Of a DNA stretch of 64,000 nt, positions 19,081 through 24,793 are shown piece after piece (position 1 is the first letter of the stretch; the number at the start of each line of letters is the position of its first letter). The DNA comes from Thermoleophilia bacterium. Lineage in GTDB: Bacteria > Actinomycetota > Thermoleophilia > Miltoncostaeales > Miltoncostaeaceae. The notes under the pieces are model-generated. The model searched no databases, had not been told where the DNA came from, and saw only the letters and a list, made by a program, of their open reading frames with translations. A program made the position numbers and the translations under genes. The stretch spans positions 1 to 64,000 of the forward strand of contig SHVE01000010.1 of assembly GCA_009694365.1 (NCBI GenBank), written 5' to 3'.

Positions 19081-21627
19081 CTACTCCAGCGCGTCGAGGC
19101 GCGCGGTGATCTCATCGGCCTCCACGGTGAAGCGCCCGACCTTCTCGCGCTCGGCCTCCACGAGGTGCGCGGGCGCACGGCTCGCGAACCGCTCATTCCG
19201 AAGTTGCGTCTCGGCCCGAGCGAGTTCCGTGCGGGCGATCGCGAGCGCGGCCTCGAGGCGTGCCCGGTCGGCGCCCGCATCCACTTCGGGGGCCTGCACG
19301 AGGAGGTGTCCGAATGCCGTGGGAACCACGAGGGCCGTACGTCCGGGATCGCCCACCTCCACACCGGCGATTGCCGCGAGGGCGTCGACGGGCACCACGT
19401 CAGGGCCGTCGCTCACGATGGCCACCAGCAGCAGCGTCCGAGGGGAGATGCCGTGCTCGGCCCGCACCGACCGAATCGCCTGCACACACTCTCGCAGCGC
19501 CACCATGGCGGCCTCGGCCTCGGGGTCGCGCGGACCGGGAGCCAGGGCCGGGGCGTGCGTGAGCATGAGCCCGTCCGAGCCGGGGAGACGACTCCAACAT
19601 TCCTCGGTGGTGAACGGGATGACCGGATGCGCCATGGCGAGCACCTGCTCGAGCGCGGCACCAGCGAACTCCGGCGTGGCGAGAGAGGTTTTCAGAAGTT
19701 CCAGATACCAGTCGCACAGGTCATCGAAGATGAGGTGGTAGAGGTGATCGGCGAACTGACTGAAGTCGAAGGCCTCGACCGACGTGCGGGACTCCTCGAT
19801 GGCGTTGCCGATGACCGAGGCGATCCAGCGATCCCCGAGCGTCGTGGGCTCGGCCACACTGCCGGCACGGCCTCCGCGTTCCACCACGAGGCGCGTGGCG
19901 TTCCAGAGCTTGGTGACCAGTTGGCGCCCCTGGCGGATGCGATCCTCGCTGAACCGCACGTCCTGGGTAGATGTGATCATGAGGAGGCCAAACCGAAGGG
20001 CATCGGCGCCGTCACGGTCCACCACCTCGAGCGGATCAATGCCCGTGCCGAGACTCTTGCTCATGCGACGACCGTCGGTGGCCTGAACCACGGAGTGGAT
20101 GTAGACGTCGCGAAACGGCACCTCGTCCATGTACTCGAGGCCCATCATCACCATGCGCGCCACCCACAGGAAGATGATCTCCCGGGCGGTCGAGAGCACG
20201 CTGGTCGGATAGAACCGCGCCAGTTCGGGAGACTGATCGGGCCAGCCGAGCGTGGCGAAGGGCCAGAGCGCCGAACTGAACCATGTATCGAGCACATCGG
20301 GGTCGCGTTCCCAGCCGTCGCCCTCGGGGGCGTCGAGCCCCACGTACACCTCATCCCCCCGGTACCACACCGGTAACTGGTGCCCCCACCACAACTGGCG
20401 GGAGAGGCACCAGGGGCGGATCTCCGACAGCCAGTCCTGACACACCCGGCCCCACGTCGGCGGAGTGAACCGCACACGACCGTCGCGCACGGCCGCAATC
20501 GCCGGCACGGCCAACGCCTCCATGGCGCAGAACCACTGGAGCGAGAGGAGCGGCTCGACGCGCGCGCCCGAGCGGTGCGAGAAGGGCACCGTGTGCAGGT
20601 AGTCCTCACTCCCCCGAATCAGGCCCGCCGCCGCGAGGTCCGCCACCACACGTGTCTGTGCCTCAGCCACGGTGAGGCCCCGGTAGGCCTCCGGAGCATT
20701 GGCGGTCATGCGGCCGTCCTCACCGATGACCTGAATCGCCTCGAGATCGTGGCGCCGCATGATCTCGAAATCGTTGGGATCGTGCGCCGGGGTCACCTTG
20801 AGCGCGCCCGTGCCAAACGACGGGTCCACATGCTCATCCGCGATGATCGGAATCTCACGGCCCGAGAGCGGCAGGGTGACGGTCCTCCCCACCAGCCCAC
20901 GGTAGCGCTCATCAGTGGGATTGACGGCCACGGCTGTGTCTCCCAGCATTGTCTCCGCCCGCACGGTTGCCACAACGATCTCGCCCGACCCATCCGTGAG
21001 CGGATACGCGATACGCACCAGGGTGTCGGTGACCTCGCGGTTCTCCACCTCGAGGTCCGAGATCGCCGAGCCGAGGCCCGGGTCCCAGTTCACGAGATAC
21101 GTGTCGCGATAGATGTACCCCTTCTCGTACAGATCGCAGAAGACCCGCACCACGGCCCGGGCATAGCCGTCGTCCATGGTGAACCGCTCTCGTGAGAAGT
21201 CCATGGTGCAGCCGAGGCGTGTGAACTGCTGGACGATTCGCCCGCCGTACTCGGCCTTCCACTTCCACACGCGCTCGAGGAACGCCTCCCGCCCGAGGTC
21301 GGTTCGCCGCACGCCGTCCTTCGCCAGATCCTTCTCCACCACCGCCTGCGTGGCGATGCCCGCGTGATCGGTACCGCAGATCCACTCGGTCTCGTAGCCC
21401 GCCATTCGGTGGCGACGGATCAATACGTCTTGGATGGTGCCGTTGAGCGCATGGCCCATGTGCAGCGCACCGGTGACGTTGGGGGGCGGAACGGCGATGA
21501 CGTACGGTGGCCGCGGGCTCGCGGGGTCACCCCGCTGAACACCCGACTCCCTCCACGCGATAACCCACCGCGCCTCGACCTCGTGGGGATCGAGGCGGGC
21601 CGGCCAGGCGCCTGCCTCCTCGGGCGT
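19081..21627 (-). CDS. valS: Valyl-tRNA synthetase
   Basis: Charges tRNA-Val and edits misactivated threonine. Class I synthetase: HMGH (HIGH motif, inside ALHMGHALNG), a CP1 editing domain, the KMSKS motif in RRMSKSLGTG, an anticodon-binding domain and a C-terminal coiled-coil arm (RARLEAALAIARTELARAE). The first in-frame ATG (21459) is the Met of the HMGH motif itself, so the gene must begin upstream. The frame upstream encodes a good ValRS N-terminus (RLDPHEVEARW, PPPNVTGAL) back to the clpX stop but contains no ATG, GTG, TTG or CTG; ACG at 21627 (with GGGGAG 11 bases upstream) is the best guess. Length from there is 848 residues, normal. Confidence 0.93.
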   Translation of the reverse strand, partial: TPEEAGAWPARLDPHEVEARWVIAWRESGVQRGDPASPRPPYVIAVPPPNVTGALHMGHALNGTIQDVLIRRHRMAGYETEWICGTDHAGIATQAVVEKDLAKDGVRRTDLGREAFLERVWKWKAEYGGRIVQQFTRLGCTMDFSRERFTMDDGYARAVVRVFCDLYEKGYIYRDTYLVNWDPGLGSAISDLEVENREVTDTLVRIAYPLTDGSGEIVVATVRAETMLGDTAVAVNPTDERYRGLVGRTVTLPLSGREIPIIADEHVDPSFGTGALKVTPAHDPNDFEIMRRHDLEAIQVIGEDGRMTANAPEAYRGLTVAEAQTRVVADLAAAGLIRGSEDYLHTVPFSHRSGARVEPLLSLQWFCAMEALAVPAIAAVRDGRVRFTPPTWGRVCQDWLSEIRPWCLSRQLWWGHQLPVWYRGDEVYVGLDAPEGDGWERDPDVLDTWFSSALWPFATLGWPDQSPELARFYPTSVLSTAREIIFLWVARMVMMGLEYMDEVPFRDVYIHSVVQATDGRRMSKSLGTGIDPLEVVDRDGADALRFGLLMITSTQDVRFSEDRIRQGRQLVTKLWNATRLVVERGGRAGSVAEPTTLGDRWIASVIGNAIEESRTSVEAFDFSQFADHLYHLIFDDLCDWYLELLKTSLATPEFAGAALEQVLAMAHPVIPFTTEECWSRLPGSDGLMLTHAPALAPGPRDPEAEAAMVALRECVQAIRSVRAEHGISPRTLLLVAIVSDGPDVVPVDALAAIAGVEVGDPGRTALVVPTAFGHLLVQAPEVDAGADRARLEAALAIARTELARAETQLRNERFASRAPAHLVEAEREKVGRFTVEADEITARLDALE

Positions 21628-21629
21628 GG

Positions 21630-22934
21630 CTACGCCGACTCCCCGGCCTCTGCGAGGGGGAGATGCTCATCGGCGGCGTCGCGGTCGTCTTGGGAGGCTT
21701 CGGTGACCAATGTCGGCCGAAGGCCCTTCTCGATCGTCTCGCGGGTGACCACACACTTACGCACGTCATTGCGTGATGGCAGCTCGAACATGACGTCGAG
21801 GAGCGCCGTCTCGATGATGGACCGCAGACCCCGGGCGCCGGTCTTGCGCTTCAGCGCGCGGTCGGCGATGGCGTAGAGCGAATCCTCGCTGAACACCAGT
21901 TCGGCGTCGTCGAGCGAGAAAAACCGCTGATACTGGCGGGTCAGCGCGTTCTTCGGCTCGGTAAGGATGGTGACCAGATCATCACGGGTGAGTTGATGCA
22001 CGGCGCTGACGATGGGGAGGCGGCCGATGAACTCGGGGATGAGGCCGTAGTGGACGAGATCCTCGGGCAGCACCTGGCCGAAGAGATCCGTTCCGTCCGC
22101 CGTGGTGGTACGGGGAAGCTCAGCGGCGAACCCGACGCCCTTTCTGCCGATGCGCTTGTCGATGACCTTCTCGATATCGGCGAACGCACCACCACAGATG
22201 AACAGGATGTTGGTGGTGTCAATGGTGAGGAACTCCTGATGCGGGTGCTTGCGCCCGCCCTGCGGTGGCACGGAGGCCACTGTCCCCTCAAGGATCTTGA
22301 GGAGCGCCTGCTGCACGCCCTCGCCCGAGACGTCACGCGTGATGGACGGGTTGTCGCTCTTGCGGGCAATCTTGTCGACCTCGTCGATGTAGATGATCCC
22401 GGTCTCGGCACGCTTGATGTCGAAGTCGGCGGCCTGGATCAGCTTGAGGAGGATGTTCTCGACGTCCTCGCCCACATATCCGGCTTCGGTGAGCGCCGTG
22501 GCGTCCGCGATGGCGAACGGCACGTTGATGATGCGTGCAAGGGTCTGCGCCAGCAGCGTCTTGCCGCACCCGGTGGGGCCGAGGAGCAGGATGTTGCTCT
22601 TGTGGAGTTCCACGTCGGAATCGCCGGATTCGGCCACCTGAACACGCTTGTAGTGGTTGTACACGGCGACCGAGAGGATCCTCTTGGCCTCCTCCTGCCC
22701 CACCACGTAGTCGTTCAAGACGGCGTAGATCTCGCGCGGGCGCGGGAGGGTGCCGGCCTCGATCGCCGTGGGGGTCGCGACGACCTCCTCGTCGATGATC
22801 TCGTTGCAGAGATCAATGCACTCGTCACAGATGTAGACGCCGGGGCCGGCGATGAGCTTCTTGACCTGACGCTGAGACTTCCCGCAGAAACTGCACAGGA
22901 GCTGCTCGCCGGTATCACTGGTGCTTTCGGACAT
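21630..22934 (-). CDS. clpX: ATP-dependent Clp protease ATP-binding subunit ClpX
   Basis: AAA+ unfoldase that feeds substrates to ClpP. The N-terminal zinc domain has CSFCGKSQ and CDECIDLC. The AAA+ module has the P-loop [10 protein letters not shown], the GYVGEDVEN pore loop, Walker [11 protein letters not shown], and sensor 2 in [10 protein letters not shown]. The IGF-type ClpP-docking loop is represented by [10 protein letters not shown]-adjacent sequence but I could not identify it with certainty. 434 residues. Starts at ATG 22934, 35 bp after tig. No clpP lies between tig and clpX, although tig-clpP-clpX is the usual order. Confidence 0.96.
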
Positions 22935-22969: not shown

Positions 22970-24793
22970 TCACGGGGCGCTGGGCGTCGTTGCCGTCGGC
23001 GTCTTCGCCGCTGACGTCTTTGGGGTCGGTTTCTTCGCCGTGCCCTCTGCTGCGGGCGTCTTCTTCGCCGCGGCGGTCCCGCTCCCCTTCGCACTCGACG
23101 TTGCAGGCTTCGTCACGGCGGCCGTCTTCGCGGCAGGCTCCTTGGCGACGGGCTTCTTCGCAGCGGGTTCCTTCACGACGGGCGTCGTTGCGACGGACTT
23201 CGTCGCGGCGGACTTCGTCGCGGCGGGCTTCGTTGCGGCGGGCTTCGTTGCGACGGGCTTCGTTGCGGCGGGCTTCGTTGCGACGCGCTTCGTTGCGGCG
23301 GGTTCCTTCGCGACGGGCTTCTTCGCGGCGGGTTCCTTCGCGACGGGCTTCGTTGCGACGGGCTTCTTCGCGGCGGGTTCCTTCGCGACGGGCTTCTTCG
23401 CGGCGGGCTTCGTCGCAGCGGGTTCCTTCGCGACGGGCTTCGTTGCGACGGGCTTCGTTGCGACGGGTTCCTTCGCGGCGACGGCGATCCGCTGCTCCCC
23501 TTCCTCGGGGGTGATGTCCTTGGAAGATGTGACGATGAGATCCACCGCACGCTCCACACGAAGGTCTTGCCGGAGGCTGTCCCAGCCGCCAGCGCCCTTG
23601 AGTGCCGCGATCAGCTCATCGGCATCTCGACCGGCTTCGGTGGCGTCGGTACGCACGCGCTCTTCGATCTCGGCGTCGGTCAGCTCAATCTTCTCAGCAT
23701 CGGCAATCGCCTCCACCACCATTTCACGCCGGATCGACATCTGCGCGTCCTCGCGCAGCGAATCACGGGCCTGATCCATGGTCTGCCCCTGCATCGCCAG
23801 AAACTGCTCCAAGCTCACGCTCTTCGGCAGTTGGTGCGAGGTGTCGTGGAGGATCGAGTCGATACGACGGTCGATCAAAACCCCCGGGACCTCGAGTTCT
23901 GCGGCCAGCACCGCGGCGTCGATGGCCCGACGACGATAACGCTCCGTGACCGTGCGCTCCATGGCGGCGGCGAGGTGTACCTCAGTCTCGGCCCGCAGTT
24001 CGGCGGCGCTCGCGAACCCGACCGATTCGGCAAAGGCGTCGTCCATCTCGGGCAGCACTTTCTCCTGAACCGTCTGCACCGTGACGGCGTACGCGACCCT
24101 CTTCCCCCGAACCTCGTCACGGGCGTCGTCGTCGGGGTATGCGAAATCGATGGTCACCTTGTCCCCGGCCGTCGTGCCGAGGAGGCCGGCGGTGAACTCG
24201 GGGAGGATCCGCTCGCCGCCCAACTCGACGAGCTGGCCGCGCGAGCTGGCCTCCGGGACCGGCGTGCCGTCGGCGACGGCGTCGTAGTCGATGAGCACGA
24301 AGTCGCCCTCGGCGGCCGTGCGGTCGGTCTGCTCGAGGCGGGCGGACTGTTCCCGGATGCGACGGAGTTCCTCATCCACCGCACCCTCGGGAATCTCCGC
24401 CGACTCGCGGATGACCTCGAGGCCCGTGTACTGACCCAACGTCGCCGTCGGGGGCACGCGCACCGTTACCGAGAAGGTGACACCCGTTTCCGCCGCGTCG
24501 CCCATTTCCATGTCCGGCGAATCGATGGGGGCAACATCGGTGATGGCCAGCGCCTCGCGATACCACCCGTCGATGGCACGATCGAGAGTCTCGGACAGCA
24601 GCGCCTCACGCCCCACGCGCCGAATCACCACGTTGGCGGGCACCTTCCCCGGACGGAAACCCGGTAGGCGCATGCGACCGGACGTCCCCTTGACCGTGCG
24701 GTCGAACTCCTTGCGCACGTCGTCCTCGGGGATCGTTACGGCGATACGGACGAGATCGCCCGGGAGATAGGTGGCTTCAGCGGTTACGGGCAT
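22970..24793 (-). CDS. tig: Trigger factor with long Lys/Ala/Pro-rich repeat tail
   Basis: Ribosome-associated chaperone and prolyl isomerase. Residues 1-150 form the ribosome-binding domain with MRLPGFRPGKVPANV (the GFRxxKxP signature that docks on L23). The FKBP-type domain follows (AEGDFVLIDYDAVADG; GERILPEFTAGLLGTTAGDK). The helical chaperone arms run to about residue 430 (SLEQFLAMQGQTMDQARDSL). Residues about 440-560 then consist of pentads of the type KEPAA, TKPVA, KKPVA, about 24 in a row, followed by a Thr/Lys/Pro-rich end. Usual trigger factors are 430-480 residues; this one is 607. The tail resembles histone H1-like low-complexity tails and would be strongly basic. Confidence 0.95.
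   Translation of the reverse strand: MPVTAEATYLPGDLVRIAVTIPEDDVRKEFDRTVKGTSGRMRLPGFRPGKVPANVVIRRVGREALLSETLDRAIDGWYREALAITDVAPIDSPDMEMGDAAETGVTFSVTVRVPPTATLGQYTGLEVIRESAEIPEGAVDEELRRIREQSARLEQTDRTAAEGDFVLIDYDAVADGTPVPEASSRGQLVELGGERILPEFTAGLLGTTAGDKVTIDFAYPDDDARDEVRGKRVAYAVTVQTVQEKVLPEMDDAFAESVGFASAAELRAETEVHLAAAMERTVTERYRRRAIDAAVLAAELEVPGVLIDRRIDSILHDTSHQLPKSVSLEQFLAMQGQTMDQARDSLREDAQMSIRREMVVEAIADAEKIELTDAEIEERVRTDATEAGRDADELIAALKGAGGWDSLRQDLRVERAVDLIVTSSKDITPEEGEQRIAVAAKEPVATKPVATKPVAKEPAATKPAAKKPVAKEPAAKKPVATKPVAKEPAAKKPVAKEPAATKRVATKPAATKPVATKPAATKPAATKSAATKSVATTPVVKEPAAKKPVAKEPAAKTAAVTKPATSSAKGSGTAAAKKTPAAEGTAKKPTPKTSAAKTPTATTPSAP
23115..23473 (-). repeat. 15-bp tandem repeats coding the trigger factor tail
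   Basis: About 24 imperfect 15-bp units encode the pentads of the trigger factor tail. Units differ mainly at the first codon (AAG or ACG/ACC), at Pro and at the Val/Ala codon. Near-identical longer blocks recur, pointing to unit duplication. The repeats keep the frame throughout, so selection or recent expansion has preserved the coding phase. Confidence 0.9.

Follow-up and report, generated by a model that had tools for sequence, protein, structure and literature searches.

The clpX-valS junction

The window analysed here was a 64,000-nucleotide stretch of a Thermoleophilia bacterium from the family Miltoncostaeaceae (contig SHVE01000010.1, positions 1 to 64,000), and all the features of the valS locus described below were located on its minus strand. 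The upstream gene was clpX (ORF 21630-22934, identified as ClpX by the NCBIfam model NF003745), which ended with the stop codon TAG at 21630..21632. It was preceded by another ORF (22970-24793) that we take to be, probably, the trigger factor gene, given its place and its features. The protein encoded by this ORF had a long repetitive C-terminal tail rich in Lys, Ala, Pro and Thr (window 22970-23500). The downstream gene was valS, which occupied 19081..21633 from its proposed GTA start to its stop. Its product matched the TIGR00422 profile with 881.7 bits against the curated cut-off of 612.1, position 4 of the profile corresponding to residue 13 counted from the GTA, and carried the HIGH motif (HMGH, 21451..21462). 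There was one TIGR00422 match above the cut-off in this genome of 1.5 Mb, and therefore valS should be essential. Taken together, the match above the cut-off, the HIGH motif and the single such match in the genome identified the gene as encoding valyl-tRNA synthetase (ValRS).

Read codon by codon, the valS frame was TGA GCA TCT CCC CCT CGC AGA GGC CGG GGA GTC GGC GTA GCC ACG CCC GAG ... CTG CAC ATG GGC CAT. The TGA at 21667..21669 barred any start further upstream, and no in-frame ATG, GTG or TTG was present between it and the HIGH-motif Met at 21459. As the initial annotation of this DNA had pointed out, the first in-frame ATG (21459-21457) was the Met of HMGH, and a conserved ValRS N-terminus was encoded upstream of the motif, which agreed with the profile match from residue 13 onward. 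The same annotation had stated that ATG, GTG, TTG and CTG were all missing before the HIGH motif. This was correct for the first three codons and incorrect for CTG, which was found at 21465-21463; since this codon encodes the Leu of LHMGH, within the HIGH motif, it cannot be the valS start. Runs of 57 codons lacking ATG, GTG and TTG were not rare in the coding sequences of this genome (115 of 4994 windows). What is notable about the run in valS is that it lies where the gene begins and that it is conserved.

The proposed GTA start (21631..21633) shared bases with the clpX stop, forming a four-base stop-start overlap, GTAG (21633-21630), with valS in the -1 frame. The end of clpX in this genome read GGGGAGTCGGC GTAG, and a Shine-Dalgarno-like GGGGAG was located within clpX at 21639..21644, 5 bases before the GTA.

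Conservation of the junction and the choice of the valS start

The comparison covered 42 family genomes, and 20 of these (including the genome under study) belonged to the same genus, which is represented here solely by MAGs. The N-terminal part of valS was found in 39 of the 42 family genomes and in 17 of the 20 genus genomes. These 17 genomes, together with G028 from another genus, gave 18 aligned junctions. In every one of them, the valS frame opened with RTA placed on the clpX stop (R-TAG), as GTA in 11 cases and as ATA in 7, and the four-base overlap in the -1 frame was retained, its start codon always being GTA or ATA rather than NTG. The GGAG located 5 bases before the RTA was invariant as well. 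All 18 clpX genes ended with G, R, the invariant GGAGTCGGC and then RTAG CC. Counted from the RTA, a conserved Trp codon of valS came after 8, 9 or 10 codons, and its frame relation to the clpX stop never changed, indicating that insertions had respected this relation. No ATG, GTG or TTG occurred between the RTA and the Trp codon in the 18 junctions, and none preceded the conserved valS N-terminus near the clpX stop in the 17 genus genomes. Thus, valS had no canonical codon available at its beginning while a non-NTG codon was kept in its relatives, as expected for a conserved non-canonical start. In other genera, the clpX-valS junction contained a GTGA overlap or an ATG or GTG further on.

Three synonymous clpX positions over the GGAG were invariant, and the last clpX codon was GCG or GCA in all 18 junctions, whereas GCC was the commonest Ala codon at the last position of genes in the genome under study (98 GCC, 92 GCG, 56 GCA and 10 GCT). 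Since the 18 junctions are related, this pattern should be considered as support and not as a probability.

Overall, the data were best explained by translation of valS from the GTA at 21633-21631, which is replaced by ATA in certain sister species, a reading in which we have considerable confidence, with initiation occurring by what we infer to be reinitiation after clpX. The initial annotation had proposed either a rare start or an assembly base error and had suggested a check of valS starts in sister genomes. This comparison revealed RTA on the clpX TAG in G028 and in every genus genome that contained the region, which favored the rare start. The codon favored by that annotation was a different one, namely the ACG at 21625..21627, whose distance of 11 bases from GGGGAG (21644-21639) was given correctly; yet the same stretch lies just 5 bases from the GTA. 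It appears improbable that this ACG or another nearby weak codon, such as the GTC in the region 21642-21640 or a GCC, starts valS. ACG is a near-cognate codon, but it was not conserved among the sister genomes, where its position was occupied by ACC, GCC or GCT, and by GGC in G028, while the RTA two codons upstream was kept in all of them. The GTC and GCC were conserved in the 18 junctions; however, the GTC shares bases with the Shine-Dalgarno-like GGGGAG itself, and at least two mismatches separate GCC from ATG.

A start at a distant GTG inside clpX, producing a long overlap, was hardly credible. An in-frame GTG was indeed present deep within clpX, 33-40 codons upstream of the RTA, in 7 of the 18 junctions, but the other 11 contained an in-frame stop, 3 to 14 codons before the RTA, that barred an earlier start. 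This distance was 3 codons in G009 and G016 (both with ATA) and 11 codons in the genome under study, where the stop was the TGA mentioned above. Loss of a valS ATG or GTG through an assembly or sequencing error had nothing in its favor beyond the view from a single genome, and it was refuted, to the extent that we give it almost no weight, by the presence of the same feature in G028 and in each of the 17 genus genomes that contain the region. Moreover, the parallel case of tatD described below included the one-contig genome G030 and the three-contig genome G063. Finally, the location of valS in the -1 frame of clpX, a relation kept in all 18 junctions, could point to a ClpX-ValRS fusion produced by -1 frameshifting at the clpX stop. 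We consider this very unlikely because no slippery sequence common to the junctions was found: at the five junctions with RTA (valS, tatD, adk, gmk and panB), a one-base back-slip would change the P-site codon from GCG to GGC, ACG to GAC, CAA to CCA, CGG to CCG and GAG to CGA, respectively, with no -1 re-pairing. In addition, the genes upstream of the RTA starts were unrelated to one another, and the ATA of rplJ, which involved no overlap, also argued against frameshifting. Thus, translation of valS from the RTA on the clpX stop remained the preferred reading.

Probable unusual starts in other genes

The genome under study was assembled from fetched stretches and compared with approximately 1.16 Mb of the sister species G018, which gave 808 reciprocal best hits with a median identity of 74%. 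There were 426 junctions in the genome under study where the downstream frame was at -1, including 378 NTGA and 48 NTAG or NTAA. Among the latter 48, valS alone lacked ATG, GTG and TTG over the whole interval between -90 and +120 bases. A search for RTA kept in both genomes without a usable NTG returned tatD, adk and gmk, with panB as a less certain case. A separate comparative scan of the 808 ortholog pairs, based on this one pair of genomes, flagged 29 genes. We retained valS, tatD, gmk, rplJ and two further genes (on C11- and C5+) from this set; DedA, the G018 coaE and one C6 gene were neither retained nor dropped, and the rest were discarded by eye. The adk and panB cases came from the former search and not from the scan of ortholog pairs. 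A stricter filter flagged 3 genes and missed valS. Scans of a single genome by coding score produced many false leads; apart from the genes mentioned in this text, those listed were judged by eye to be leaders, antisense frames or contig-end frames. As a side observation, the G018 coaE (D1+ 188385 frame) and the C6+ 89354 frame of the genome under study had conserved N-termini, with neither NTG nor RTA present close to where the start would be expected.

The strongest sister case of an RTA start on an upstream stop is tatD, where the upstream gene matched MetRS. The tatD RTA coincided with position 1 of the TatD profile (position 1 being residue 1), and GGAGGTG preceded it at a good Shine-Dalgarno spacing. 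In G018, the tatD frame opened with TGA GGT GAC CGC GTA GTC GAC TCG CAC, and since its in-frame TGA was 3 codons before the GTA, nothing else can start the frame before HxH. Similarly, the open-frame lengths permitted just 3 codons upstream of the RTA in six genus genomes. We searched the family (42 genomes) and the class (399 genomes) for a tatD sequence pattern with the RTA fixed. This pattern was found in 29 of the 42 family genomes, and each time it coincided with the beginning of the tatD match. Of the 17 genus genomes in which this match covered the N-terminus, 15 had the pattern, as did 14 of the 20 other family genomes with tatD. The gene was present in 38 family genomes, 9 of which did not match the pattern. 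Class-wide, 30 of the 399 genomes matched it, comprising these 29 and one of the 357 genomes outside the family.

Like tatD, the adk and gmk genes opened with RTA on the upstream stop both in the genome under study and in G018. The adk RTA, preceded by secY, occurred in every one of the 17 genus genomes containing adk (as ATA in 16 and as GTA in 1) while the adjacent codons drifted, and position 1 of the Adk profile corresponded to residue 3 counted from the RTA. The adk pattern was absent from the other 22 genomes of the family. For gmk, a strict pattern detected the RTA in 13 of the 19 genus genomes with this gene, and the non-matches may reflect the strictness of the pattern. No Shine-Dalgarno-like stretch was found close to the gmk RTA, and the small protein encoded before gmk had no profile match at the threshold used. 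Judging by its sequence in the genome under study and G018, panB probably also opens with RTA on the upstream stop, in this case that of PanC-PanD. This case was weaker because a GTG was located four codons upstream in both genomes. It may be that in some genomes adk and panB have a longer overlap from an upstream NTG. In the genome under study (C5-), PanC and PanD were apparently fused into a protein of 434 residues, followed by panB.

Apparent unusual starts were also found outside the RTA overlaps. In the genome under study, the rplJ gene (ribosomal protein L10; C1+ 100032) read TGA GGA GGT GAG GAA ATA GAC AGG, with AGGAGGTG at an ideal spacing; its apparent start is this ATA, preceded by a perfect Shine-Dalgarno sequence. 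The L10 profile began at residue 4, the next NTG was a TTG 16 codons later, and G018 had CTG in place of the ATA. Two genes of unknown family, in the C11- 38452 and C5+ 45724 frames, had apparent ATC starts behind a good Shine-Dalgarno sequence, the former being ATA in G018. Another group of genes had apparent CTG starts on the upstream TGA (CTGA), with profiles beginning just after them, namely lysS (C14+ 17115), miaA (C11- 21116), ribBA (C13+ 27214), glmM (C12+ 21255) and dnaJ (C1+ 160627), given as strand-wise offsets in the genome under study. CTGA accounted for 85 of the 426 junctions in the -1 frame, many of them with an adjoining ATG.

Possible mechanism and known systems

The position of the RTA, its conservation, the obstacles to alternative starts found in several genomes and its recurrence in unrelated genes were read directly from the sequences, and initiation of valS at this codon probably proceeds by termination-reinitiation from clpX. 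Ribosomes finishing clpX at UAG would be held by GGGGAG, step back one base to place RUA in the P site, and restart there, using the ordinary initiator tRNA (fMet) in spite of the third-base A-C mismatch. The output of ValRS would thereby be tied to that of ClpX, probably at a low ratio. The location of valS, tatD, adk, gmk and probably panB on RTA suggests that the third-base choice of the start codon is relaxed in this lineage.

We looked for a cause of this tolerance in the initiator tRNA and IF3 and set aside a modification of these two components as an explanation, since both the tRNA, with its CAU anticodon, and IF3 looked ordinary. ARAGORN identified three tRNA-Met(CAU) genes in the genome under study, including one ordinary initiator. 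Solved IF3 chains could be aligned with the IF3 of this genome over its length, a GTG was present close to the beginning of its frame, and no obvious change explaining RTA tolerance was found in either component. In the fetched DNA of this genome, ARAGORN reported no tRNA-Val(UAC) and no tRNA-Glu(UUC), which could lie in DNA that was not read. The GTA codon was used 6.9 times per 1000 codons.

We slightly favor a model where RUA serves the ribosomes of the Miltoncostaeaceae as a regular, if minor, start codon. According to it, RTAG/RTAA would form a second class of four-base overlaps besides ATGA/GTGA, whose stop codon imposes a start lacking a third-base G; a few genes (rplJ and two others) would start at ATA or ATC away from such overlaps, and the third-base fidelity would be relaxed family-wide by some change. 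At the least, the gene of an essential enzyme and a few others seem to start at GTA or ATA in this actinobacterial family, mostly on an upstream stop. Essential or core genes of one bacterial family appear to break the NTG rule, GTA included. If this is true, then the N-termini of proteins made from RTA starts are misannotated, stop-start overlaps include one more class that has escaped notice, and studies of how start-codon fidelity can be relaxed have a natural test case in this family.

NTG starts are taken for granted both by gene finders and in work on overlapping genes, and RTA starts are missed by standard gene finders. The -4 overlap has been defined as ATGA/GTGA, with every start codon said to have G at the third position (PMC10666635), or as NTGA (PMC12548453). 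The valS junction resembled the NTGA overlaps with termination-reinitiation in that its start was on the upstream stop, with the -4 spacing and a Shine-Dalgarno-like stretch in the upstream gene. The RTA overlaps differed from them in their stop, which was TAG or TAA; a four-base overlap on such a stop necessarily has RTA in place of NTG as its start.

Conserved non-NTG codons at true gene starts have precedents, one of them being the AUU start of E. coli infC. AUA starts have been described for infC and ccpN of Staphylococcus aureus, and a title cited in the same paper reports an AUU start for E. coli pcnB (PMC13009471). These cases were limited to a few regulatory genes with ordinary sites, while here GTA was involved as well, the genes encoded a synthetase and core enzymes, and the starts were mostly on an upstream stop. 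In reporters, non-canonical starts gave about 10%, and up to 30%, of the AUG level (PMC13009471), and weak third-base pairs were disfavored by IF3 in vitro (PMC10158994). GTA and ATA were poor starts in model bacteria (PMC13009471, PMC2268962), which counts against the RTA reading, as do the ordinary initiator tRNA and IF3, the gmk RTA with no Shine-Dalgarno-like stretch close by, the 9 family genomes whose tatD fell outside the pattern and the possible longer overlaps of adk and panB. No description of a natural, conserved bacterial GUA start was found in the literature searched on non-canonical starts and gene overlaps, and natural clade-conserved GTA starts appear to be undescribed there. 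One close known case was a GUA start mutation in E. coli recJ, which was apparently coupled to an upstream ORF and had its expression raised by IF3 mutations (PMC2268962). Like valS, recJ combined a GUA start with apparent coupling to an upstream ORF by reinitiation; the GUA of recJ was a mutation, while in valS it is natural and conserved.
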